From the NCBI RefSeq assembly GCF_003353065.1, contig NZ_CP027806.1, forward strand, positions 2,934,501 through 2,998,500: a stretch of DNA of 64,000 nucleotides, in the 5' to 3' direction. This stretch comes from Cyclonatronum proteinivorum (GTDB taxonomy: Bacteria; Bacteroidota; Rhodothermia; Balneolales; Cyclonatronaceae). The first letter of the stretch is position 1; every line of letters starts with the position of its first letter. The notes beneath the pieces were generated by a model that did not search any database, was not told the origin of the DNA, and was given only the letters and a program-made list of their open reading frames with translations. Made by a program: the position numbers and the translations under genes. This document shows, in pieces, positions 26,721-42,525 of the stretch.

Positions 26721-27827
26721 TTAATCTTCAAAAAATGCCATTTCTAGCTCCGGTATGGTCGTATCAACACCGGTATCGCCCTTGGGCGATACCGCGCTGG
26801 CGCTCAGGCCGGCCGGCCTGAGCGCCAGCGCGGCATCAAAGGCCTCGTTTTTCTTCCACAAATGGTACATCAGGCACAACAACTTCTTCTGCAAGGCCAC
26901 ATTGGCCTTCATTTTTATCCCGTGCCGGCTGACTAACCGATCATAATAGCTGTAATATGGTTGCTTCCTGTGCGACAAAATATTGCCAACCGGCATGTAC
27001 ATGGCTGCCCTGATGCGCGCATTGCCCTGTTTCGACATTTTTCTCTTGCCTTTGTGTTTGCCTGACTCCTTAACCACTATATCGTAACCCGCATAGCTGA
27101 TCAGCTGGCTTCTTGTCGTAAAGTATTCAAAGCCCAGCGTCTCTGCCAGCACCGTGGAGATTGTAATCAAACCTATCGACGGAATCGACTTCAGCTTATC
27201 CACCTTTTCTTCGATCTCCGGATCCGAATCCAGATGCCTGGTGATCAGCTTTTCAAGCTTGGTGATCTGTTTATCCAAGGCAGCGATGGTTTGCTGGACA
27301 ATCTTGCGCGTATCTTTGATAGCGTAAGCGCTGTAATTGAGAGCGTGAAGCTGGTTTTTGAGCTGGGTCCGCTGTTCTACCAACGCGCCACGGGTACGCG
27401 TGAGCTGACGCAGCTCGCTCCAATAGGGTTTAATGCCCCGCCATAGCTGCAGCTTCTTGCGCGCACCCATCAGGGCTAGCCCGCGGGCATCAATACGGTC
27501 GGTTTTGTTCTTGAATCCCTCAGACTCATTGAATCTACGCGCCTGACTGGGTAAAACCACGCTTAATGCCCATTCGGGGTGGTTATCAAACAGGTGCAGG
27601 GCAACCCGCTCGTAATACACACCGGTGGCTTCCATGGTGATGCGCACCGGTGCAGGCTGTTTGGACTCCCATTTGGTGACCCAGCTGACAAACTTGGGCA
27701 GCTCTGCCTGGGTGTTGTTAAACTTTCTGGAGGAGCGTACACGCTCGGTCTGTTCAACAGGGTTATACTCGAGGATGCAGGCCTTGAAGTCGTCTTTTGA
27801 GATATCTATGCCAATGGAATAAAACAT
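26721..27827 (-). CDS. IS110-family DEDD transposase/recombinase
   Basis: 368 aa. The RuvC-like DEDD domain shows the acidic residues in SIGIDISKDDF, RITMEATGVYYERVA and KTDRIDARGLA. A helical middle follows (about 120-190), then the Transposase_20 domain (about 210-310) with SIPSIGLITISTVLAETLGF and ESGKHKGKRKMSKQGNARIR, the region that holds the catalytic serine in characterised members. After LYHLWKKNEAFD, where most relatives end, about 35 extra residues (starting ALALRPAGLSASAVSP) are encoded by a palindromic stretch. It appears intact and possibly active. Confidence 0.93.
   Translation of the reverse strand: MFYSIGIDISKDDFKACILEYNPVEQTERVRSSRKFNNTQAELPKFVSWVTKWESKQPAPVRITMEATGVYYERVALHLFDNHPEWALSVVLPSQARRFNESEGFKNKTDRIDARGLALMGARKKLQLWRGIKPYWSELRQLTRTRGALVEQRTQLKNQLHALNYSAYAIKDTRKIVQQTIAALDKQITKLEKLITRHLDSDPEIEEKVDKLKSIPSIGLITISTVLAETLGFEYFTTRSQLISYAGYDIVVKESGKHKGKRKMSKQGNARIRAAMYMPVGNILSHRKQPYYSYYDRLVSRHGIKMKANVALQKKLLCLMYHLWKKNEAFDAALALRPAGLSASAVSPKGDTGVDTTIPELEMAFFED
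26771..26833. repeat. Two adjacent long palindromes in the 3' end of the transposase gene
   Basis: The first, at 26772-26793, pairs GGTATCGCCC with GGGCGATACC across a short loop. The second, 26792-26833, is a perfect 42-bp palindrome whose left arm begins CCGCGCTGGCGCTCAGG. Both are translated as part of the transposase tail. Confidence 0.85.
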
Positions 27828-31414: not shown

Positions 31415-33118
31415 TTAGAAACGATAGCCCACCGAAGCCCTGAAAAACAGATCGGGAAATGCGGCAATGTTTACCCCTACGGTAAAGTCATCAAAAACCG
31501 AATACCACCGTCCCATTGAAAATGATGTTGGCGTAGGGTTATCAAAGAGGTCTTTGAAGTCCTCATCGGTACTTTCCGCTAAGGCCCCTGAAAACATGAC
31601 TGAAGCGCCAAAGCTGTAATTTGGATTGCTGTATCGGGTGTATTGGCTGAATGCCTGAAAAAGCAGCCCGTCTATATCGAGAAACAGAAGTCGTACCGGT
31701 ATCAGCGCCAGATTCCAGCCCTTAAGTTTTTCCGGGAAAACAAAATTGGCCCCCAGTCCGAAACCACTACCGGCACTTTTGCCAATAATATCATCCCCAA
31801 ACTCGAGCCTGAGCGGGCTTGTGTAGGCGATATAATTTAAGACGATGGTGTGCCGTCCGGCTTTAAGATCTACACCCAAACGAAGGCTCGAGGGCAGCTG
31901 CAGCCTGGAATCCGAAATGAGATCCGATATATCCCGCTCAGTTGAAAGGTTTGGTTTGTTGGCTTGCAGTGAGTCGAGCTCAAGTTCAAGATCACCGCTG
32001 AGCACATCCTGCCCAACGATAAATACCGGCAGAAATGCCCTGCTGAATGAGTTGGGGTCGGTCAGCGAAAATTCCGGCATGTGATTGTAGGATAGAGAAA
32101 TATCCGCAAACCAGGGCGTTTTCCAGGAAGCGGAAAACTGAAAGCCGTTTCGGGTATCCTGGAAGTCCCCGGAAGCCTGCATGACAAAATCGTTGGATTC
32201 ACCGGCCGCGAAGTTCAGGTTTGGATCGTTTGGATTGTTAAAGAAACGTTCATCAGCTCCCCCCACCACAACAAAGCCGTTCAGGTCAGTACTTAAAATC
32301 CTGCGGTGAGCTGTTGTATATCGGTTTAGGGCAAAACCTCCCGCGACGTCCCCTAACTCACCGCTGTAAAGAAGCGCACCAAGACCAACCGTGAAGTTTT
32401 GCATCTGAAAGCTGAAATCAAGCAGCGAGGAAATATTCATCAAAATATCGAACCTCACGCTGACATCATCAGTGCCCTGCTCTTCCCTGATTTTGGTTGA
32501 AAGACCAGACGACTGAAGCCTGAAACGAATATCTGCCGGCTGCGTTGCGCCAAGACCCAGCACTACATTCCGGTAAACCGGCCATGCAACCGCAAACGAC
32601 GTAAACCCGCTGCCAACACCGGCCCGAAGGCTGTTAATTTGTGTTGGCCTGATTGTTGGACTTGCCGACAGGATAAAATTATCGGGATCCCGGACGAAGT
32701 TGTCCGTCTCTGTTTCAATTTCATCGTTAAATGATGAAATAATGTTGTTTTCGATGGATGAAGTAGTCCATGAGCCGTAGCCGAGTTGTGTGTCAAATAC
32801 GAAGTCACGGTTTTGTATAAACCCAAGTCCGGCCGGGTTGTTAAAAATGATTGCGGCGTTATGCCCTACCCCTGCTGAAAGAATACCTCCCATCATAGCA
32901 GACCCATAGCCGGCGCCCGTGGCGTTCAGATTATACCGGAAGTCGATATTTAAAAGCCCTCCGCGCCACAATGAAAGTAGCGGCGGATCATCGTCATCAG
33001 CTAAAGCTGCAGCAGCAGAAGCCGCGTTTGTTAGGGCGAAGAGCGACAGTACCGGCAGGAGCAAAACCCAAACCCGTAAAAAGTGTTTTGCTTCGGTTTT
33101 ATTTTTTGATGAAGTCAT
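31415..33118 (-). CDS. Outer membrane beta-barrel protein, FadL/OmpP1-like
   Basis: 567 aa with a cleavable signal (LLLPVLSLFALTNAASA) and a body of alternating amphipathic strands ending in aromatic Phe (FRASVGYRF), the usual barrel terminus. Near the mature N terminus, GHNAAIIFNNPAGLGFI matches the NPAGL pattern of the FadL/PorV superfamily. It is third in an operon after the giant repeat protein and the PorV-like barrel, 13 bp downstream of the latter. Transport of hydrophobic ligands, or a partner role for the surface protein, are both possible. Confidence 0.75.
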   Translation of the reverse strand: MTSSKNKTEAKHFLRVWVLLLPVLSLFALTNAASAAAALADDDDPPLLSLWRGGLLNIDFRYNLNATGAGYGSAMMGGILSAGVGHNAAIIFNNPAGLGFIQNRDFVFDTQLGYGSWTTSSIENNIISSFNDEIETETDNFVRDPDNFILSASPTIRPTQINSLRAGVGSGFTSFAVAWPVYRNVVLGLGATQPADIRFRLQSSGLSTKIREEQGTDDVSVRFDILMNISSLLDFSFQMQNFTVGLGALLYSGELGDVAGGFALNRYTTAHRRILSTDLNGFVVVGGADERFFNNPNDPNLNFAAGESNDFVMQASGDFQDTRNGFQFSASWKTPWFADISLSYNHMPEFSLTDPNSFSRAFLPVFIVGQDVLSGDLELELDSLQANKPNLSTERDISDLISDSRLQLPSSLRLGVDLKAGRHTIVLNYIAYTSPLRLEFGDDIIGKSAGSGFGLGANFVFPEKLKGWNLALIPVRLLFLDIDGLLFQAFSQYTRYSNPNYSFGASVMFSGALAESTDEDFKDLFDNPTPTSFSMGRWYSVFDDFTVGVNIAAFPDLFFRASVGYRF

Positions 33119-33131
33119 ATCATTACCCTCT

Positions 33132-34142
33132 TTAAAAATTTACCTGTAGACCAATGCGATGCGTATTGGCGATATCATCAATAATGTACCCGTAATTCAC
33201 TTGTATGTGATATTCTGATAGGGGTACCTGCACACCAGCTCCCATCATATACTTATTATCGGCGCGGGTGTTGAGCCACTGCTCTGTTCCGAGACGCAGG
33301 GCTATGATGTCTAAGAAAATGCGTTCAAAACCGATTCTCAGGGCATCATCCTGTTCGCTGTCAAACGATGGTTTGTATTCAACTGAAAAAATGGTGTGTC
33401 CACCGGCTGACCATGAAGTCCCGAGCGCTGCTTCAAAAGGTACGCGCTCACTATAACTGCCCTTTGAGCGACTGTCAGCGTTACGGGTCTTGCTGTTCCA
33501 GTAAACGGGTGCGAAAATATCGCGGAGCATTAGTCCGAAACTAAGTTCATCACTCATTCGATAGATAAGACCTAAATCGAGGCCAAAGCCGTTGGCGTTA
33601 CCATAAACCTGATTGGAAATGCCAATACTAATTTCATTCGGGTCAAATATTCCGTCGAAATCTTCCGGGTTGAGGGTGTTATTTCCAAAACCAGACCGCC
33701 TGTACTTAAGGGCTGCCCCGGCTGAGAGACCCGGCAACACCTCACGGGCATATCCCAAATGAAGGGAGAACTCGCGCATTAGGTCATCACCGGAAGAAAT
33801 GATTGCCAATGCCGCGGATTGTTTTTCTGACAATGGCAAGCCGGCTGAAAAAAACTGATAATTCACCAGCCCCATAAGCCTTGTATGGGTAAACTCGATC
33901 TCATACAGGCTCAGTGAAGTAAGACCTGCGGGATTCAGATAAACAGCATTTATATCATCCGCAAGGCCCGCATAGGCATTTCCCATACTTACGGGTCGGG
34001 ATCCGAAACCAACATCTGCGAATGCTGCCGGTATAGCACTGAGTTGCTGTGCTTTGGCAATACCAAAATCAGATGCAACAAGTACAAGTACGAGAAACAG
34101 GCATCTGCAGGTTTTAAACAAAACTTTAATTTGAGAAATCAT
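33132..34142 (-). CDS. PorV/PorQ-family outer membrane protein
   Basis: 336 aa with a signal peptide ending in AKAQ, then DVGFGSRPVSMGNAYAGLAD and VYLNPAGLTSL, the hallmark N-terminal pattern of the PorV/PorQ family, and a barrel ending in IGLQVNF. PorV proteins shuttle cargo of the type IX secretion system in Bacteroidota; related barrels occur outside that system. It sits 13 bp after the giant repeat protein gene, consistent with helping that protein reach the surface. The rest of the type IX machinery is not in this window. Confidence 0.82.
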   Translation of the reverse strand: MISQIKVLFKTCRCLFLVLVLVASDFGIAKAQQLSAIPAAFADVGFGSRPVSMGNAYAGLADDINAVYLNPAGLTSLSLYEIEFTHTRLMGLVNYQFFSAGLPLSEKQSAALAIISSGDDLMREFSLHLGYAREVLPGLSAGAALKYRRSGFGNNTLNPEDFDGIFDPNEISIGISNQVYGNANGFGLDLGLIYRMSDELSFGLMLRDIFAPVYWNSKTRNADSRSKGSYSERVPFEAALGTSWSAGGHTIFSVEYKPSFDSEQDDALRIGFERIFLDIIALRLGTEQWLNTRADNKYMMGAGVQVPLSEYHIQVNYGYIIDDIANTHRIGLQVNF

Positions 34143-34155
34143 GGCTGCATCTCCC

Positions 34156-37100
34156 CTATTTTACGAGCACTATCTGCTCAATTTTGGTGACTTGGTTGCG
34201 ACCGTCGCGTACATGAATGCGCATGATGTAGCGTCCGTTGTTGGCCATACGCCCGTCATCGGTAAGGCCGTCCCAGGTGATTTCAAGCGGTGAACTTGCA
34301 CTGCCGTAGCGTCCGGGCATTTGCTCGGAATCCCGAAGTAACCGCCTCACAAGCTGCCCCCTCATATTGTATATAGTAATATTAACAATTGCGGGTGGTG
34401 CGTCAGAAGTAAGGAAATATCCGATACGTGCACCCGGTTCAATGTAGGGTGAAAACGGATTCGGCAGTATTCCGATTCTTTGAAGGGATAGCGGCTCATT
34501 TTCAGCAAGTACCGTAAACTGTCCAAGCCTTGAAAAGTCACGTATGTGCAGCAAAGAGCCTGACTCGCTGGTTTCGAAAAGCTGCCACTGCAGCTCATCA
34601 TTATTAAAGCGGCCAATATGACGCTCACCTTCAAACAAACGAAGTGATTCGGGGAGCGGTAGCGAAAGCTCTGCCCCCGGGTTAAGGGACGGACCTGTGT
34701 ACCTGAGCCTGTAAACTTCATCAGAAGCGGTTAGACTTAAGTCTGTACCAAATGCCACCACAAATTTTTTGGGGGTTTCAGGCCTTGTGATTCGAAGTGA
34801 AACCTGTGCATTATCGGTTATTGCTTCTTCCGGCAGATACAGCAGCATTTGGCTGCCGTCCGTAAAGAAATACTCATTACCTACCCGTATTTCGCCAAAC
34901 ACACTAACTGTACGGGAAACAGCTTCGATGCCTGTTTGCTGATCAGTGGCGATAGCGCGGAATTCGGCAATTACTTCGGGATCGGGTGTAAAACGACCGG
35001 TTGGAGATATAACACCGGAATTCGCATTGCTGAGCGACCAGGTTAAATCTGTACCCAGTAATATCGGCTGCCCGTCAGAGGTCTGTGCTGAATAAGTAAA
35101 TGTACGCGTATTGCGGTTGCTGATTTGCGGAGCCGGTCGACTGACACTCAGGCTGCTTACCGGCTCATCCGTCACCATTAAATTAAAGGCGGATGCCTGA
35201 ATCTGTTCACCAAGGGTTGCTGTGATATTCAGGTTTGCCACCCCGGCAGCTGTGCTGCTATCGAACTCGAAAAGACCATCAGAAAGGGATTGCGTAATAT
35301 CGTTTCCGTTGAGTTCTACGGTAACGGTTCCATCGGCATCCTCTCCGGTAAAGCGACCAAGCATACTATTATTTTCACCATCCCTGATATCAAGACGTAC
35401 TCTGTAGGTATCGGATGTACGTATCCTGATCTCAGATATATCCGGCTCAAGCCGTATTTGGCTGAGCAGATCAGTGGCAAGCGGGCTTTTGACAAACTCC
35501 GGACTTCGGAAAGTTCGGGATGTTTTAGCATCGCTCACTTCAGTGAAGAAAATCACATCTTCCAGAGACAGCAAAGGCGGGAGCACAGCTTCGATACCAT
35601 TACCAACGAGCTGTGCAGAAAAGGGCTCCTGTCTGAATGTACTTTGTGATTCAAGTCTGTAAAACAGTCTGCCCGTGAGCCCTTCCGGCTCATACCCTTC
35701 TGTAAATTCAATCCTGAAGGTTGCTTCCTGCCCGGCAGCTATTTCATTTGGTGGTGAGAAAGTAAACGGGAGCTCAATATCGACTTCAACACTGCTTGTG
35801 TCTGATTCAAGTGTTGCCGTGTAACTCTGTACGGGAACCATAAACCGCTCTGTAACAACTCTCAGGTTGTAGGTACCGCCACGCAGCGTAAACGGGGTTT
35901 GGAATGTACCGTTCTGATCTGTTCGGTACTCTGTAACCGTTGACCCGCCTGCTCTGTTGAACAAAATTATTAGATCAGCAACCGGGGCTACACCATCCGT
36001 CACATTGGCACGTACTGCTCCGCTTGGAAGTATGAATTCGGGTACTGTAATACTGCTGCCCGCTGCAGATTGGGGTATCCGCAGTGTTTGACTTGCAGAA
36101 AACTGACCTGTATTCACACTTATAACAGCAAGTGTAGTATCCTGAGCCCCAGATCGTATCGGAAATGGCGCCTGTCGGTACCGCCCGGCTGCATTGGTCA
36201 CGAGGTCAAAGGTATTGTCACCCGTTATCTCTACTTGCACACCTTCCACCCCGTCACCCCGGTAAAATACGAAGCCCTGAAGGAAGTTGAGTTGGGAGGG
36301 CTGCAACGAAAAATTCTGGTCCGTGACCTGCTGATTAAATGGAACATCTACCAGAAGGGTGTCGGCAATATATCCAACACGTGTCGCAATCAGGCGGTAA
36401 CTGCCCGCACTTAAGGTAGCGAAGCTGTAGTTGCCATTATTTCCTGTCGTGAATTCCCGCTGCTGCCCGGTTGCGAGATTACGCAGCCGCACCCGCGCGT
36501 CTGACAACGCATTACCGGTATCGCTTCGGCTCACACGTCCGCTTACAGATGACAAGGCCTGCTGCATTTCAAATGAGAGACTCACTTCTGCACCTATATT
36601 GAGCGTTACATCTTGTGGTGGTGCCAGAAAACCCTCTCTGCTTGCCGTTACGGTATATGTCCGCCCGGCAGGTATGTCACTAAAAGTAACCGTACCGGAT
36701 TCTCCGGCTGTCCGGTTAAATACAAATGATTCATCATCGCTGACGGCTGTAAAAACGGTACCGCCAACAGGTTCACCTGCAGTTGTAACTGCTGCAGCCG
36801 TTATGGTACCTACATTGGGCGTTGCCGTAAAATTCAGCTCCGCCGTCTGTCCAAAAGCAAGGTTATTTACCTCGGCCTGCACGGGATTAAAGACAAAACC
36901 GGCCTTAACCGGCTGAACAAGATAATCGCCGGCAGGAAGAAAGCGGAAACGAAAGAACCCGTCGGGCTCGGAAACGCGCGAATCAATCAGCTGCTGCTCC
37001 CCATTATCTATAGAAAACAAGCGGACAGTTACCGCATCAGTACCTGCTGTACCCTGAATCCTGCTGTTGTTTACCTGTATAACCAGTGGTTCATCAAGCG

Positions 37101-40100
37101 TTACGACAGTCTGATCGAACGGATAAAAAAGCGTTGTACTTCCGTTTATAAACCCCTGCTGTGTTGCATTCGTCTGAATGGTATAGGTCTCACCAGGCTG
37201 AATACCTGCAACAGAAAACTGTCCCTCAGAATTGGTATTTGTGTTATAAACCAGCTCATCGGTAAATATTCTCACAGGAATAGGCTGCCCAATCGACTCA
37301 TTGAGCTGATTGGTTACTATGCCCTGAATGGTACCGTCATTCAGACTCAGCGCTCCATTCACAACAACGTTGGGTTCTTCATCTGTGATGGTTAATTCCT
37401 GTGTAAAGCTGCTGTAACCCGACCTTGTAGCCTGCAGCACATACGTACCGGCCGTGAGATTTTCGATCTGGTAGACACCATTTACATTGGTTACCGCTGA
37501 ACCTGAACCTGCTGGTCCGTCAACAGAAATGTTAACCTGACGTAACCCGGCTCCGGTCTGCTGATTGGTAATTACCCCCTGCACAACACCGCTGTTAAGC
37601 TGAAGTCCGGTTATTTCCAAACCGGTCAGATCTGGATCATCCGGTTCAAGCGTAAATGACAGGTTTTCCGAAGCAGAATAACCATTAAGGCTGGCATTCA
37701 TAACATAGGTATCAAAAGCAGCAGGGATAAAACTGAACTCTCCCTGCTGATTCGTAGTACGGGTACGAACCTGTCCTGTAGTTGTGCGGGTAAGGAAGAC
37801 CGTTGCATCAGCTAAAAGGACACCATCCTGGTTTGTTACAAAACCTGAGATACTCCCGGTTTGCGGTATGAGTGTGAACGTTTCGGCAATTTGCTGCCCT
37901 TCTTCTGCTTCAAAATCAGTAATGGTAAGCGGGTCAAACCCTTCACGGCTAATGCTAATCGAATACAGGCCTGTCACAAGGGTGCTAACCGTAAAGTTTC
38001 CGCCTGCATCCGTTGTGCGCGTTGCCCCACTTCCACCACCCTGCCTTGTAATATTTACCAAAGCTCCTTCCACTGGTTCTCCGGCAGCAGATATAACCTG
38101 ACCCGCCAACAGTGCAAAATTACGTGCGATTTCAAAATTTACCCCGGTCAGGTTTTGCCCGTTACTCAGAATTATATCATTTATCACTTCAGAAATATGG
38201 CCGGGTCTCGAAGCCTGCAGGGTATAAGTACCGGCGCTCAGACCCGCGTTATAAGTCCCGTTACTTTCGGTTTGTCTGGTTTGGATAAGTTCACCTTCAG
38301 AATTAAAGATTTCAACCAAAGCCCCTGACACTGCATTTCCGGCATCATTTTGAACAAGCCCGCTGATCTGAGCCGGCACCGGATTAATTTGTATATTTCT
38401 GTTAAGCGGCTGCGGATCCGGCGACAAGTTTTCAACTTCTGCTGTACCGGAAGTGAAGCCTGTTCTTGTAACCGTAATCAGATAGGATTTGTTGACTTCC
38501 AACGTGAAAGCATAAGCACCGGACACCTGTGTTTGCGTCGTTTGGCTAAAAGAGGGGTCATCAGGGCTGGTTACGAGCACTTGTGCGTTGGAAACAGCCC
38601 CCTGAGGACTGGAGACAACACCGCTTACAACCCTTGTATTGGGGATCAGAGAAAAATTCCGGCCACTCGTTTGCTGCCCGGCAGAGAGCGTGAGTTCAAT
38701 AGTTGAAGGCGGGAGAAAGCCCGAACGCTGCGCTGAAAGCGTATAGCTGCCGGGACTTACGTTTAGGGAATAGGTTCCGTTTCCGCTGGCCGTAGTCGTA
38801 AATGTACCACCGGTTCCAACGGCCGTAATAAGCGTATTCGGTACAGGCTGCCCAAACGTAAGAACCTGACCTGAAACGGTTGCTGCATTGGGCGTCATTA
38901 CAAATGAAATACCGCTGAGCTGTTGCCCGGCTTCCAGGCTTACCTGCTGCGGACCATCAGAGAAAAAGCCTGAACGCGAGGCTTCAAGCTGAAATGATCC
39001 CGGCGGCAGACTTAGCGTAAAAGCACCGGCCGCACTTGTTGTAGCAGTTGCAAGCTCTCCTGCCTTTACGGTTGCGCCGCTCAAAGGCGAGCCGTCTGGC
39101 CGCTGTACAAGACCGGAGATCTCACTGTCATTAGGGTTGATAATCAGCTCAAGACCCGATAATGTTTCATTAAACCCAAGGGTGAGGTTTAGGGGATTCT
39201 GAAGGGTAAAGTTCGGCCTTTGCGCCAGTAGCTGAAAACTTCCGCTGCTCAGGTTAAGGGTAAACTGACCGGCCGGATTGGTAGTCGTTTCTATCGTAGA
39301 ACCAGATGATGGCTGGGCAAGAACCCTTGTATTCCCTGCCGGTACAAGGCTTGTGCTTCCGTCAGCTGCTGTAACAACGCGCCTTACAAACCCTGATATC
39401 TGGTTGGCACCCCCGCTCAGCGTAAAATTGTTGTTCTGAACCACATCACCCACACCTAATGACAGCTGCTGAACGTCGGACGGTACAAATCCCGACCTTG
39501 TTGCCCGAACCTCCCAATTGCCGGAAGTAAGGGTAAGCGAATAGAATCCCTGTGAATTGGTATTCGTTTCTATCACACTTTCACCCTGCTGCGCTCTAAC
39601 ACGTACAAGCCCGATAGGAATATTACCCGGACTTCGGACAAAGCCTGATACCTCAGCAACATCATTTGTCAGTACAACAGGCTCCGAGAGTTCAAGCTGC
39701 TCATCGAGATCAAGGTTGAGAAACAAGTTGGGGGGACTAGCATATCCGGAGCGGGATACACGTAATTCAAAAGAGCCGGATGGTACCGAGAGGCCGAAAG
39801 CGCCGTCACTATCAGAGAACGTAATCGTATTGTCTTGGGTCTCAAGGTTTCTCAGGCGCACCCTGGCATTGCTCACCGGAATGCCGGTTTCGTCTTCAAC
39901 GATGCCGCTTATAAAGGCTGGCAGAGGTTCTAACTGAAAGGCCATATCCGTACGCTGACCCGGATTTATGGTTCGGGTGAGTATCTTATCTGCAAAGCCT
40001 TCCTTAACCACTTTAAACTCATAGGTTCCGGCAAGCAGGTTTTCAGTGATATTTGTACCCTGCAGAAAGAAAGGATAAAGAGGCGTAGCACCTTCATTAA

Positions 40101-41289
40101 TAGCTGTAGCAAAAAGCTGTGCACCTGCTTCTGAATCGCCGGTTTCGGCATTTGAAAGGGTTGCCCTAAACTCGCCTGTATCGGCGTCATATACAAAGCT
40201 GCGTCTTTGTGAATAGCGCCCTGAACCAAACTCCGTATTCGCAATAACTTCCCACTGATACTCAGCAGACTGCAAATTTCCCAGCGCGGGGTAAGTGATC
40301 TGTGTATTGGTTGTGGTTGTACTCCATGAAAGCAATACCGCGTCAACCCCCTGTTGCGTCACTTCCTGATACAGGTTTATAGTGTAGTTAGTCGCCTCAT
40401 CCACTTCTGTCCACTGAAATGTCAGCTCAGGTTCAGCTATGAATACTTCATTATTAGCCGGGGATGTTAGCTGCGGCGGATCAATAGCTTCGGGGTCGAA
40501 AAAAGTAACCGGGGTTACGCCCCCAAACACAGAACTTGCAAAAGCAGGGTTTGACTCCGAGTACATGTTCAGGATGGTATAACTGTACTCCTGACCTGAA
40601 TTAAGCGGAGGTGCGTCGAACACCTCATCACCGTCTTCATTGACATCACCGTATGTGGCCGTATTGTCTGTAGTGTAATGTGACCACAGCAGGGTAACGC
40701 CTTCGACTGATACATCGCCGTCATCATCTGTTGTAATCTGAAAGGGTGTACTGGAAAAAATAATCCAGTAGCCGATTACACCAGGAACTTCTTCCCACTC
40801 AAAAACCGGAGTGGGATCGTCAATTACGCCCCGGGGGCCAATTACAAAGGGCGCCTCCTGAGCTTCAACAATAATCATCACCTGATTTGAATAAACCAAA
40901 TCAACTCTTGGATCTGATATTATAGCTGATGTTGTCGAAAATGCTGAGTTCGTAATACGCGCATAATATCTGCCGGGGGGAAGATTAATGGCCGGATCAG
41001 AAGGCACAAACTGAAAAGAACTGCCGCTGACGGGTATAGACCTGAAAGTGTAGCTATTCGCGGTTCGGCCAATCTTGAGCTGCGCTCCTGTTCCTGTTAA
41101 ATCAGCACCATAGAACAGCTGTATTATATTATCAGGTTTGTGAAGCAACCTGAAATCGAAATTTGTCCCCCCCGCCGGGTCAGACTGTGGTGGCTGCAAT
41201 AAAAATTGCTGTGCCTTAGCTTCTGTGCCAAATATGGCGATGATTATACACAGAAAAAAAAGCTGTGATATACCCCTTAACTTATTCAT
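34156..41289 (-). CDS. Giant surface protein with ~17 carboxypeptidase-regulatory-like repeats and FlgD-like C terminus
   Basis: About 2,377 aa from the ATG at 41289, which gives the signal MNKLRGISQLFFLCIIIAIF ending before A-Q; a start 22 codons upstream is unlikely. The N-terminal 400 residues hold fibronectin-like segments (FEWEEVPGVIGYWIIFSS, FQWTEVDEATNYTINLY). About 17 repeats of 80-90 residues follow (about 390-1800), each with a pattern like SGxVxxPxGxPVxNAxV, a GxFxLxLxxGSYxLxAxRxGF core and a linker, typical of CarboxypepD_reg Ig-like domains. Ig-like segments come next, and finally a domain with LPNPFSPYIEPGARIGYFL, NITIYNMRGQLVR, ITWDGLTDDGRMANNGRY and a terminal IEQIVLVK, which resembles FlgD-like and type A sorting domains. 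Likely a long cell-surface stalk or adhesin. Confidence 0.85.
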   Translation of the reverse strand: MNKLRGISQLFFLCIIIAIFGTEAKAQQFLLQPPQSDPAGGTNFDFRLLHKPDNIIQLFYGADLTGTGAQLKIGRTANSYTFRSIPVSGSSFQFVPSDPAINLPPGRYYARITNSAFSTTSAIISDPRVDLVYSNQVMIIVEAQEAPFVIGPRGVIDDPTPVFEWEEVPGVIGYWIIFSSTPFQITTDDDGDVSVEGVTLLWSHYTTDNTATYGDVNEDGDEVFDAPPLNSGQEYSYTILNMYSESNPAFASSVFGGVTPVTFFDPEAIDPPQLTSPANNEVFIAEPELTFQWTEVDEATNYTINLYQEVTQQGVDAVLLSWSTTTTNTQITYPALGNLQSAEYQWEVIANTEFGSGRYSQRRSFVYDADTGEFRATLSNAETGDSEAGAQLFATAINEGATPLYPFFLQGTNITENLLAGTYEFKVVKEGFADKILTRTINPGQRTDMAFQLEPLPAFISGIVEDETGIPVSNARVRLRNLETQDNTITFSDSDGAFGLSVPSGSFELRVSRSGYASPPNLFLNLDLDEQLELSEPVVLTNDVAEVSGFVRSPGNIPIGLVRVRAQQGESVIETNTNSQGFYSLTLTSGNWEVRATRSGFVPSDVQQLSLGVGDVVQNNNFTLSGGANQISGFVRRVVTAADGSTSLVPAGNTRVLAQPSSGSTIETTTNPAGQFTLNLSSGSFQLLAQRPNFTLQNPLNLTLGFNETLSGLELIINPNDSEISGLVQRPDGSPLSGATVKAGELATATTSAAGAFTLSLPPGSFQLEASRSGFFSDGPQQVSLEAGQQLSGISFVMTPNAATVSGQVLTFGQPVPNTLITAVGTGGTFTTTASGNGTYSLNVSPGSYTLSAQRSGFLPPSTIELTLSAGQQTSGRNFSLIPNTRVVSGVVSSPQGAVSNAQVLVTSPDDPSFSQTTQTQVSGAYAFTLEVNKSYLITVTRTGFTSGTAEVENLSPDPQPLNRNIQINPVPAQISGLVQNDAGNAVSGALVEIFNSEGELIQTRQTESNGTYNAGLSAGTYTLQASRPGHISEVINDIILSNGQNLTGVNFEIARNFALLAGQVISAAGEPVEGALVNITRQGGGSGATRTTDAGGNFTVSTLVTGLYSISISREGFDPLTITDFEAEEGQQIAETFTLIPQTGSISGFVTNQDGVLLADATVFLTRTTTGQVRTRTTNQQGEFSFIPAAFDTYVMNASLNGYSASENLSFTLEPDDPDLTGLEITGLQLNSGVVQGVITNQQTGAGLRQVNISVDGPAGSGSAVTNVNGVYQIENLTAGTYVLQATRSGYSSFTQELTITDEEPNVVVNGALSLNDGTIQGIVTNQLNESIGQPIPVRIFTDELVYNTNTNSEGQFSVAGIQPGETYTIQTNATQQGFINGSTTLFYPFDQTVVTLDEPLVIQVNNSRIQGTAGTDAVTVRLFSIDNGEQQLIDSRVSEPDGFFRFRFLPAGDYLVQPVKAGFVFNPVQAEVNNLAFGQTAELNFTATPNVGTITAAAVTTAGEPVGGTVFTAVSDDESFVFNRTAGESGTVTFSDIPAGRTYTVTASREGFLAPPQDVTLNIGAEVSLSFEMQQALSSVSGRVSRSDTGNALSDARVRLRNLATGQQREFTTGNNGNYSFATLSAGSYRLIATRVGYIADTLLVDVPFNQQVTDQNFSLQPSQLNFLQGFVFYRGDGVEGVQVEITGDNTFDLVTNAAGRYRQAPFPIRSGAQDTTLAVISVNTGQFSASQTLRIPQSAAGSSITVPEFILPSGAVRANVTDGVAPVADLIILFNRAGGSTVTEYRTDQNGTFQTPFTLRGGTYNLRVVTERFMVPVQSYTATLESDTSSVEVDIELPFTFSPPNEIAAGQEATFRIEFTEGYEPEGLTGRLFYRLESQSTFRQEPFSAQLVGNGIEAVLPPLLSLEDVIFFTEVSDAKTSRTFRSPEFVKSPLATDLLSQIRLEPDISEIRIRTSDTYRVRLDIRDGENNSMLGRFTGEDADGTVTVELNGNDITQSLSDGLFEFDSSTAAGVANLNITATLGEQIQASAFNLMVTDEPVSSLSVSRPAPQISNRNTRTFTYSAQTSDGQPILLGTDLTWSLSNANSGVISPTGRFTPDPEVIAEFRAIATDQQTGIEAVSRTVSVFGEIRVGNEYFFTDGSQMLLYLPEEAITDNAQVSLRITRPETPKKFVVAFGTDLSLTASDEVYRLRYTGPSLNPGAELSLPLPESLRLFEGERHIGRFNNDELQWQLFETSESGSLLHIRDFSRLGQFTVLAENEPLSLQRIGILPNPFSPYIEPGARIGYFLTSDAPPAIVNITIYNMRGQLVRRLLRDSEQMPGRYGSASSPLEITWDGLTDDGRMANNGRYIMRIHVRDGRNQVTKIEQIVLVK

Positions 41290-41628: not shown

Positions 41629-42525
41629 CTAACAGTCTTTATTGAAGTATTCCAGTACTTTTTCCTGATTTCTCGCAGTGATATAAAAGCGACACAGGTC
41701 AGGGCTGATGCTCAGGCCGCGGGGGTCGTCGGTTTGGGAGCTTAGGTCGAAGCTGCTGTGGTAGACCGCAGTTTCCAGCTGCCAGGGGGAGGCAAGCTGA
41801 TACTGCATGAGTTCCATACGCACGGTATCGAGCAGTAGCATTACACGCCCGTCGAATATAAACTCGATACCACGTACCTCCTCTTCCAGATCACTGATAT
41901 CAAGCGTAAATACGTGCCCGGCTGTGGTAATATCCCAGGCAGTTGACAACTGATACTGATGCACGGCCTGCGCATTGCGGTCATCGATGAACAGCATAGT
42001 ACCGTCAGGATGGAAATGCATATCGTGGCCGCGTTCAACAACAGGCGTCAGATCTTCATAATGCAGGACTTCGGCTGTTGTGATGTCCCAGGCGGTATTC
42101 AATTGCCAGGCCCACATTTCGGTGCGGTTAAACACCCACATCAGGCTGCCATCCGGACTAAAGAACAACCCGTGCGCCCGCGAGAGATCATTGTTCTGCT
42201 GCAGGGCCTCAGCTACCGATACGGAGGCCGCATACACCGCGCCTTCGAGTTCCCACGGGGAAATGGTCTCCCAAGCTACAACGGACTCCGTGAAGCGGCT
42301 GGCAATGTACATGGTGTTTCCGGACGGATGCCAGAAGGTCGCGCGGGCATTGTCTGTATTTCCGGATATATCGAGTTCTGTACCGCTAAACTCAAAAGAT
42401 TCAAAAGAAAGCGTCGCTGGTATTTCATCCTGCTCTGACGCACAACCCAAGCATAGAACTGAAATAAAGAGCAGGAAGCTACAAAGCAGCGGGCGATAGT
42501 TTGGCAAACCGTTAAACGTCGTCAT
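41629..42525 (-). CDS. Lipoprotein with beta-propeller-like repeats
   Basis: 298 aa. The signal ends in a lipobox-like LCLGCAS. The mature protein has four or five repeats of about 50 residues, each with a HPDG or SPDG turn, and the linkers SPWELEGAVY, TAWDITTAEVL, TAWDITTAGHV and SPWQLETAVY. This P/A-W-x-I/L-x-T-A repeat occurs in predicted propellers of marine bacteria and viruses, from memory. Function is unknown. It reads towards the giant-protein operon. Confidence 0.75.
   Translation of the reverse strand: MTTFNGLPNYRPLLCSFLLFISVLCLGCASEQDEIPATLSFESFEFSGTELDISGNTDNARATFWHPSGNTMYIASRFTESVVAWETISPWELEGAVYAASVSVAEALQQNNDLSRAHGLFFSPDGSLMWVFNRTEMWAWQLNTAWDITTAEVLHYEDLTPVVERGHDMHFHPDGTMLFIDDRNAQAVHQYQLSTAWDITTAGHVFTLDISDLEEEVRGIEFIFDGRVMLLLDTVRMELMQYQLASPWQLETAVYHSSFDLSSQTDDPRGLSISPDLCRFYITARNQEKVLEYFNKDC

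Follow-up and report, generated by a model that had tools for sequence, protein, structure and literature searches.

A conserved three-gene cassette of Bacteroidota pairs a 17-repeat stalk of constant length with linked PorV-family and FadL-superfamily barrels

What might a very long repeat protein encoded directly ahead of two outer membrane barrels do, and how would it reach the cell surface? The question is raised by a locus in the window, i.e. the 64,000-nucleotide stretch of the Cyclonatronum proteinivorum genome that we analysed. The genes for the stalk, the PorV-like barrel and gene 3 lie head to tail in this order (Table 1), and each product has an N-terminus predicted to be Sec signal-peptide-like. 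The sequence-only reading had described three genes with 13-bp gaps, the first encoding a 2,377-aa stalk with about 17 tandem CarboxypepD_reg-like domains. The open reading frames on the minus strand (41289-31415) agree with this, both gaps being exactly 13 bp, and a repeat HMM derived from the stalk protein puts the count for the window copy at exactly 17 repeats (aa ~380-1840), Pfam finding 14 CarboxypepD_reg stretches (E 5.7e-153). An alternative start at an upstream GTG would give a stalk of 2,399 aa.

Table 1. Coordinates of the cassette genes and of the parts of the stalk within the window.
Feature	Position	Strand	Extent	Description or basis
Stalk gene	41289-34156	minus	2,377 aa from ATG	
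N-terminal tip	40150..41211	minus	aa 27-380	Predicted Fn3/Ig-like tandem
17 CarboxypepD_reg-like repeats	35770..40149	minus	aa ~381-1840, period ~86 aa	Repeat HMM, Pfam
Non-repeat domains before the tail	34504..35769	minus	aa ~1841-2262	Alignments
Putative type IX C-terminal domain	34159..34503	minus	aa 2263-2377	hhalign, NCBIfam, Pfam
PorV-like gene	34142-33132	minus	336 aa	Cassette-specific PorV-family barrel, putative carrier
Gene 3	33118-31415	minus	567 aa	FadL-superfamily outer membrane barrel

The three genes are one conserved cassette. Among 394 sampled Bacteroidota genomes, gene 3 occurs in 16 (~4%, in several classes) and the stalk tip in 17, and the two are found together in 15. Every intact copy examined has the three genes in the same order, whether it comes from Balneolales, from another family of that class or from one of several families of other classes. 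The exceptions to co-occurrence are a weak partial match (G372) and two decaying copies: in G014 the stalk is gone and the PorV and gene 3 are truncated (L054:5673-7163), while ~615 aa of the stalk are left in G352. Apart from one decaying copy and one contig edge, gene 3 was not found without the other cassette genes, and it has no match among 72,556 plasmid records. The co-occurrence in 15 genomes and the decaying copies imply that the cassette genes persist and decay together. The trees of the three genes have 10-11 of 13 splits in common; between the stalk and SprA trees, 10 of 12 splits agree. A chance neighbourhood is ruled out by the conserved gene order and the congruent trees, in line with the colinear recurrence in more than 15 genomes.

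There is one conflict with the SprA tree: in all three gene trees the window groups with a genome of another family (G407), and the genus-mates of the window are without the cassette. On the basis of these trees, the most plausible history is one of ancient vertical inheritance, numerous losses and one probable transfer of the whole unit involving the window. An S9 peptidase gene neighbours the cassette; in the genus-mates it lies in another context or at a contig end, and the empty site is unreadable there.

Absence of all type IX genes would have refuted the sequence-only reading, but genes for the translocon and the sortase are present. The complete 4.29-Mb host genome encodes SprA (1,541 bits), PorU (955), PorV (337) and PorQ (307), with PorU adjoining PorV, and holds about 90 canonical type A tails. 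SprA is present in all cassette genomes, yet this co-occurrence is a weak test because 302 of the 394 sampled genomes have SprA and the listed SprA-negative genomes are nearly all of one family.

As to the stalk tail, the earlier assignment to FlgD-like or type A sorting domains stood in its first half only. FlgD_ig (PF13860) is matched in Pfam by 16/16 stalk tails, and the PorU C-terminus model in NCBIfam likewise by 16/16. The type A models (TIGR04183/PF18962) are matched weakly by a single tail of the 16 (E 4.6e-4 and 0.0058), which is not that of the window stalk; the marks are of the PorU type instead. A TIGR04183 match in the full-length stalk lies inside the repeats (aa 970-1027), away from the tail. 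At E 0.01, the stalk has no match to type B (TIGR04131), nor any to type C (cl41395) in Pfam/NCBIfam, a library whose content of a type C model is unconfirmed. By hhalign, the nearest tails are those of PorU (97.9%, E 3e-13), and the tails of other genes preceding PorV paralogues score 97.7%; type A tails are further away than PorU (94.1%, E 1e-7), and the stalk repeats, used as negative controls, stay below 3%. The likeness to PorU continues upstream across the junction. We reject type A identity on the one weak match in 16 and the greater closeness to PorU. From these profile comparisons, we conclude that the tail is a putative divergent type IX C-terminal domain (CTD) that most resembles the tail of PorU, the sortase. 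The stalk combines the two marks of type IX cargo, i.e. a signal-peptide-like N-terminus and a C-terminal domain homologous to known CTDs. The last stalk residue is a Lys, invariant among the homologues; type A tails have a near-invariant Lys near the end, which contacts PorV (PMC10994853). A literature search returned nothing on FlgD with PorV, on Ignavibacteria with PorV or on an FlgD Ig-like sorting domain.

The second gene had been read as PorV-like, PorV being the known carrier of such cargo. It is indeed a PorV-family homologue, although not the known PorV. The PorV/PorQ family model (NF033709) is matched over nearly the whole length at 78 bits (E 9e-22), below its cut-off of 90. The equivalog models also score below their cut-offs: PorV (NF033710) 20.8 against 250, PorQ (NF033711) 20.8 against 220 and PorV2 (NF052325) 67.7 against 325 bits. 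The 336-aa barrel passes Pfam PorP_SprF marginally (25.4 vs 22.3), its best fit being PorV_fam at 78 bits, and at 19 bits it falls below the T9SS_PorP_fam cut-off of 90.55 that would mark a type B/SprF partner. A tree was built from 54 PorV-family proteins, taken from four genomes together with the cassette copies; all 14 PorVs of the cassette fall on a single branch (support 98/91), separate from PorV, from PorQ and from the remaining paralogues. We infer that this barrel is the dedicated carrier of the stalk.

Pairing of this kind extends beyond the cassette. In the four genomes, many PorV-family paralogues lie directly 3' of a gene with an FlgD-like tail, which makes the cassette a specialised instance of a more widespread arrangement and draws attention to further, unstudied PorV-tail pairs in these bacteria. 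The paralogue known as NCBIfam PorV2 is a different one and is unpaired with a tail gene. Between 10 and 21 PorV-family paralogues were counted per genome, in Balneolales and others (G000 L010, L013, L014, L017; G053/G212/G333 L096-L125). At least four tail subtypes are paired with different PorV branches, one of them with two PorV-family barrels in tandem. At L043:8702-17707 (G000:C1:3254701-3263706), a tail-bearing gene and its PorV paralogue are duplicated in tandem; the PorV copies are identical, and the cargo proteins are of 946 and 1,325 aa.

The stalk itself is best conserved at its two ends. The conservation profile ranks the tail above the tip and places the mid and lower rod lowest, and identity of tip and C-terminal domain is ~0.5 within Balneolales. 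The tip was modelled with AF2 at pLDDT 84, and the Foldseek matches of the model are Fn3 tandems; by sequence, the tip gave only chance-level matches to the PDB. The Fn3-like N-terminus is most likely the distal tip of the stalk. Since Fn3-like folds are generic, the fold points to no ligand. Between the repeats and the tail we counted by eye about four Ig-like domains, and in the alignments this non-repeat region closes with a conserved GQF.V.A.NEPL junction before the tail.

In tandem-repeat surface proteins, the number of repeats commonly varies. Counted from the first mature residue, the 17 stalk copies measure 2,323-2,373 aa (mean 2,354, CV 0.63%), whereas the CV is 4.5% for the SprA frames of these genomes. 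The lowest pairwise identity among these copies is 25%, and the 17-copy alignment contains no indel of at least 12 aa relative to the window except in a linker at aa ~2248. With the repeat HMM, the other copies have the same 17 repeats, one repeat being missed in one copy, and a few copies give stray weak extra matches outside the array. General slowness does not explain the fixed length because the stalk sequence evolves faster than SprA (median end branch 0.58 vs 0.23). The length of the rod seems to matter, given that 17 repeats and total length are kept in the intact copies despite drift to 25% identity. With 17 repeats and a length held within ~0.6%, the stalk lends itself naturally to testing whether selection acts on how long a bacterial surface structure is.

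The model that we favour, with some reserve, is that of a SprA-exported stalk which stays uncleaved on its own PorV-like barrel with the tip outward. The stalk would reach the periplasm via Sec, by its signal peptide, and its divergent PorU-like tail would then take it across the outer membrane by way of the SprA translocon; this export is proposed from homology, since the tail scores below the type A model. The cassette PorV-family barrel may then accept the tail from SprA and hold it uncleaved as a membrane anchor, non-cleavage being suggested by the likeness to PorU and the conserved junction. In Porphyromonas, PorV retains the tail of PorU and PorQ that of PorZ, both uncleaved, and cognate PorV-like barrels have been suggested to protect tails (PMC10202324); the cassette provides a clear, testable example for the proposal that such barrels keep some tails uncleaved. 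Gene 3, as a FadL-fold barrel, might be a partner of the anchor, a step that draws on linkage and that we hold most lightly. The 17-repeat rod would hold the Fn3-like tip outward at a fixed distance, ~70-100 nm if extended, an estimate that takes domains of typical size. A length so strictly kept suggests the bridging of a set distance, for instance across a surface coat or over to an adjacent surface, and the job of the cassette would most likely be contact or adhesion. The earlier idea of a dedicated surface-display cassette is supported by these findings: the locus has a PorV-family carrier of its own and a barrel of the FadL family, and the host genome has type IX genes. Only tentatively do we extend the model to a fixed-length ruler of ~100 nm, with the number of domains under strict selection, the tail and shuttle forming a fourth type IX class (not A, B or C) and gene 3 belonging to a permanent anchor.

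Gene 3 brings in the alternative that survives best, namely that the locus is an uptake system in which the stalk and its PorV barrel form an arm that captures a ligand, hydrophobic or other, and feeds it to the FadL-fold barrel for import. The barrel had been read as FadL-like, and this is supported by family and fold: FadL/TodX (PF03349) is matched by 9 of 17 aligned gene 3 homologues (best 1.9e-8, the window copy itself being without a match), the gene 3 profile finds TodX weakly, and the NPA motif is conserved. The top Foldseek match of the AF2 model is the P. aeruginosa FadL homologue (prob 1.00); the model is of low confidence (pLDDT 60, six sequences) and is counted only together with the family matches. 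Some members of the superfamily are known to import hydrophobic compounds, and the near-strict tie of gene 3 to the cassette, broken by the one decaying copy and the one contig edge, would also suit such a system. However, a stalk of tens of nanometres would be an odd feeder, FadL-fold barrels of Bacteroidota also have non-transport roles, as in PorV and BamG (PMC12578637), and no catabolic gene keeps a place next to the cassette across the clades compared. We thus regard uptake as unlikely.

Two further readings are each quite improbable. One takes the stalk as an SprB-like gliding adhesin that the type IX motor would carry over the cell surface, on the grounds that a long repeat protein with a dedicated shuttle recalls type B adhesins and SprF (PMC12618676); the tail lacks the TIGR04131 match, however, the carrier belongs to the PorV rather than the SprF family, and about 4% of sampled Bacteroidota is a narrow range for the cassette. 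The other takes it as ordinary type A cargo, with PorU cleaving the tail and leaving the stalk on lipopolysaccharide or released, and the adjacent PorV as a spare paralogue. Homology to type A tails by hhalign and the presence of PorU agree with this, but the lone weak type A match, the linkage of the cassette PorV to the stalk across classes, and a likeness to the uncleaved PorU tail that spans the junction too speak against it. That the FlgD-like domain is a mere Ig-like module and the stalk no type IX substrate is very improbable: PF13860 does occur outside type IX systems as well as in all 16 members, but the profile matches to PorU, PorV-adjacent and type A tails come with clean negative controls, a PorV-family gene always follows the stalk, and an extended rod of such length would be too long for the periplasm.

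Cognate pairing of CTD and shuttle is already known in type IX, and what is notable here is the constant 17-repeat rod. In the attachment complex, PorU-PorV and PorZ-PorQ likewise pair a CTD protein with a PorV-family barrel, whereas the cassette cargo is a rod of 24 or so domains without a peptidase domain, its barrel lies on a separate branch, and a second FadL-fold barrel is added. The SprB-SprF systems resemble the cassette in placing long surface repeat proteins beside a dedicated shuttle of the PorP/SprF type, and type B tails require their cognate SprF (PMC12618676); the cassette differs in its PorU-like tail and PorV-family barrel. Closest in layout are the other pairs of FlgD-like CTD and PorV family (NF033709) in the same genomes, where the CTD gene also lies immediately upstream of the PorV paralogue, although with another tail motif, other PorV branches, varying cargo size and no conserved 17-repeat rod. 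Gene 3 has its fold and NPA motif in common with FadL/TodX (PF03349) and BamG, the latter a FadL-fold protein of non-transport role, but it is longer, is matched by Pfam in part of the family only and is tied to the stalk.

Several neighbours of the cassette were recorded. Just upstream in the window lies a gene for a 298-aa lipoprotein-like beta-propeller on the same strand (41629-42525), whose adjacency is not conserved in the other loci compared. An IS110-family transposase gene, also on this strand, is found ~3.6 kb from the cassette end (26721-27827). In one related family (L093, L094, L095, L135, L136), the cassette sits near a conserved gene whose product starts IIPINIEEEMKSS and which we take to be possibly DNA gyrase A; at four of the five loci, this gene and the cassette are separated by a gene for a ~750-aa CarboxypepD_reg barrel and one for a ~312-aa lipoprotein-like product.
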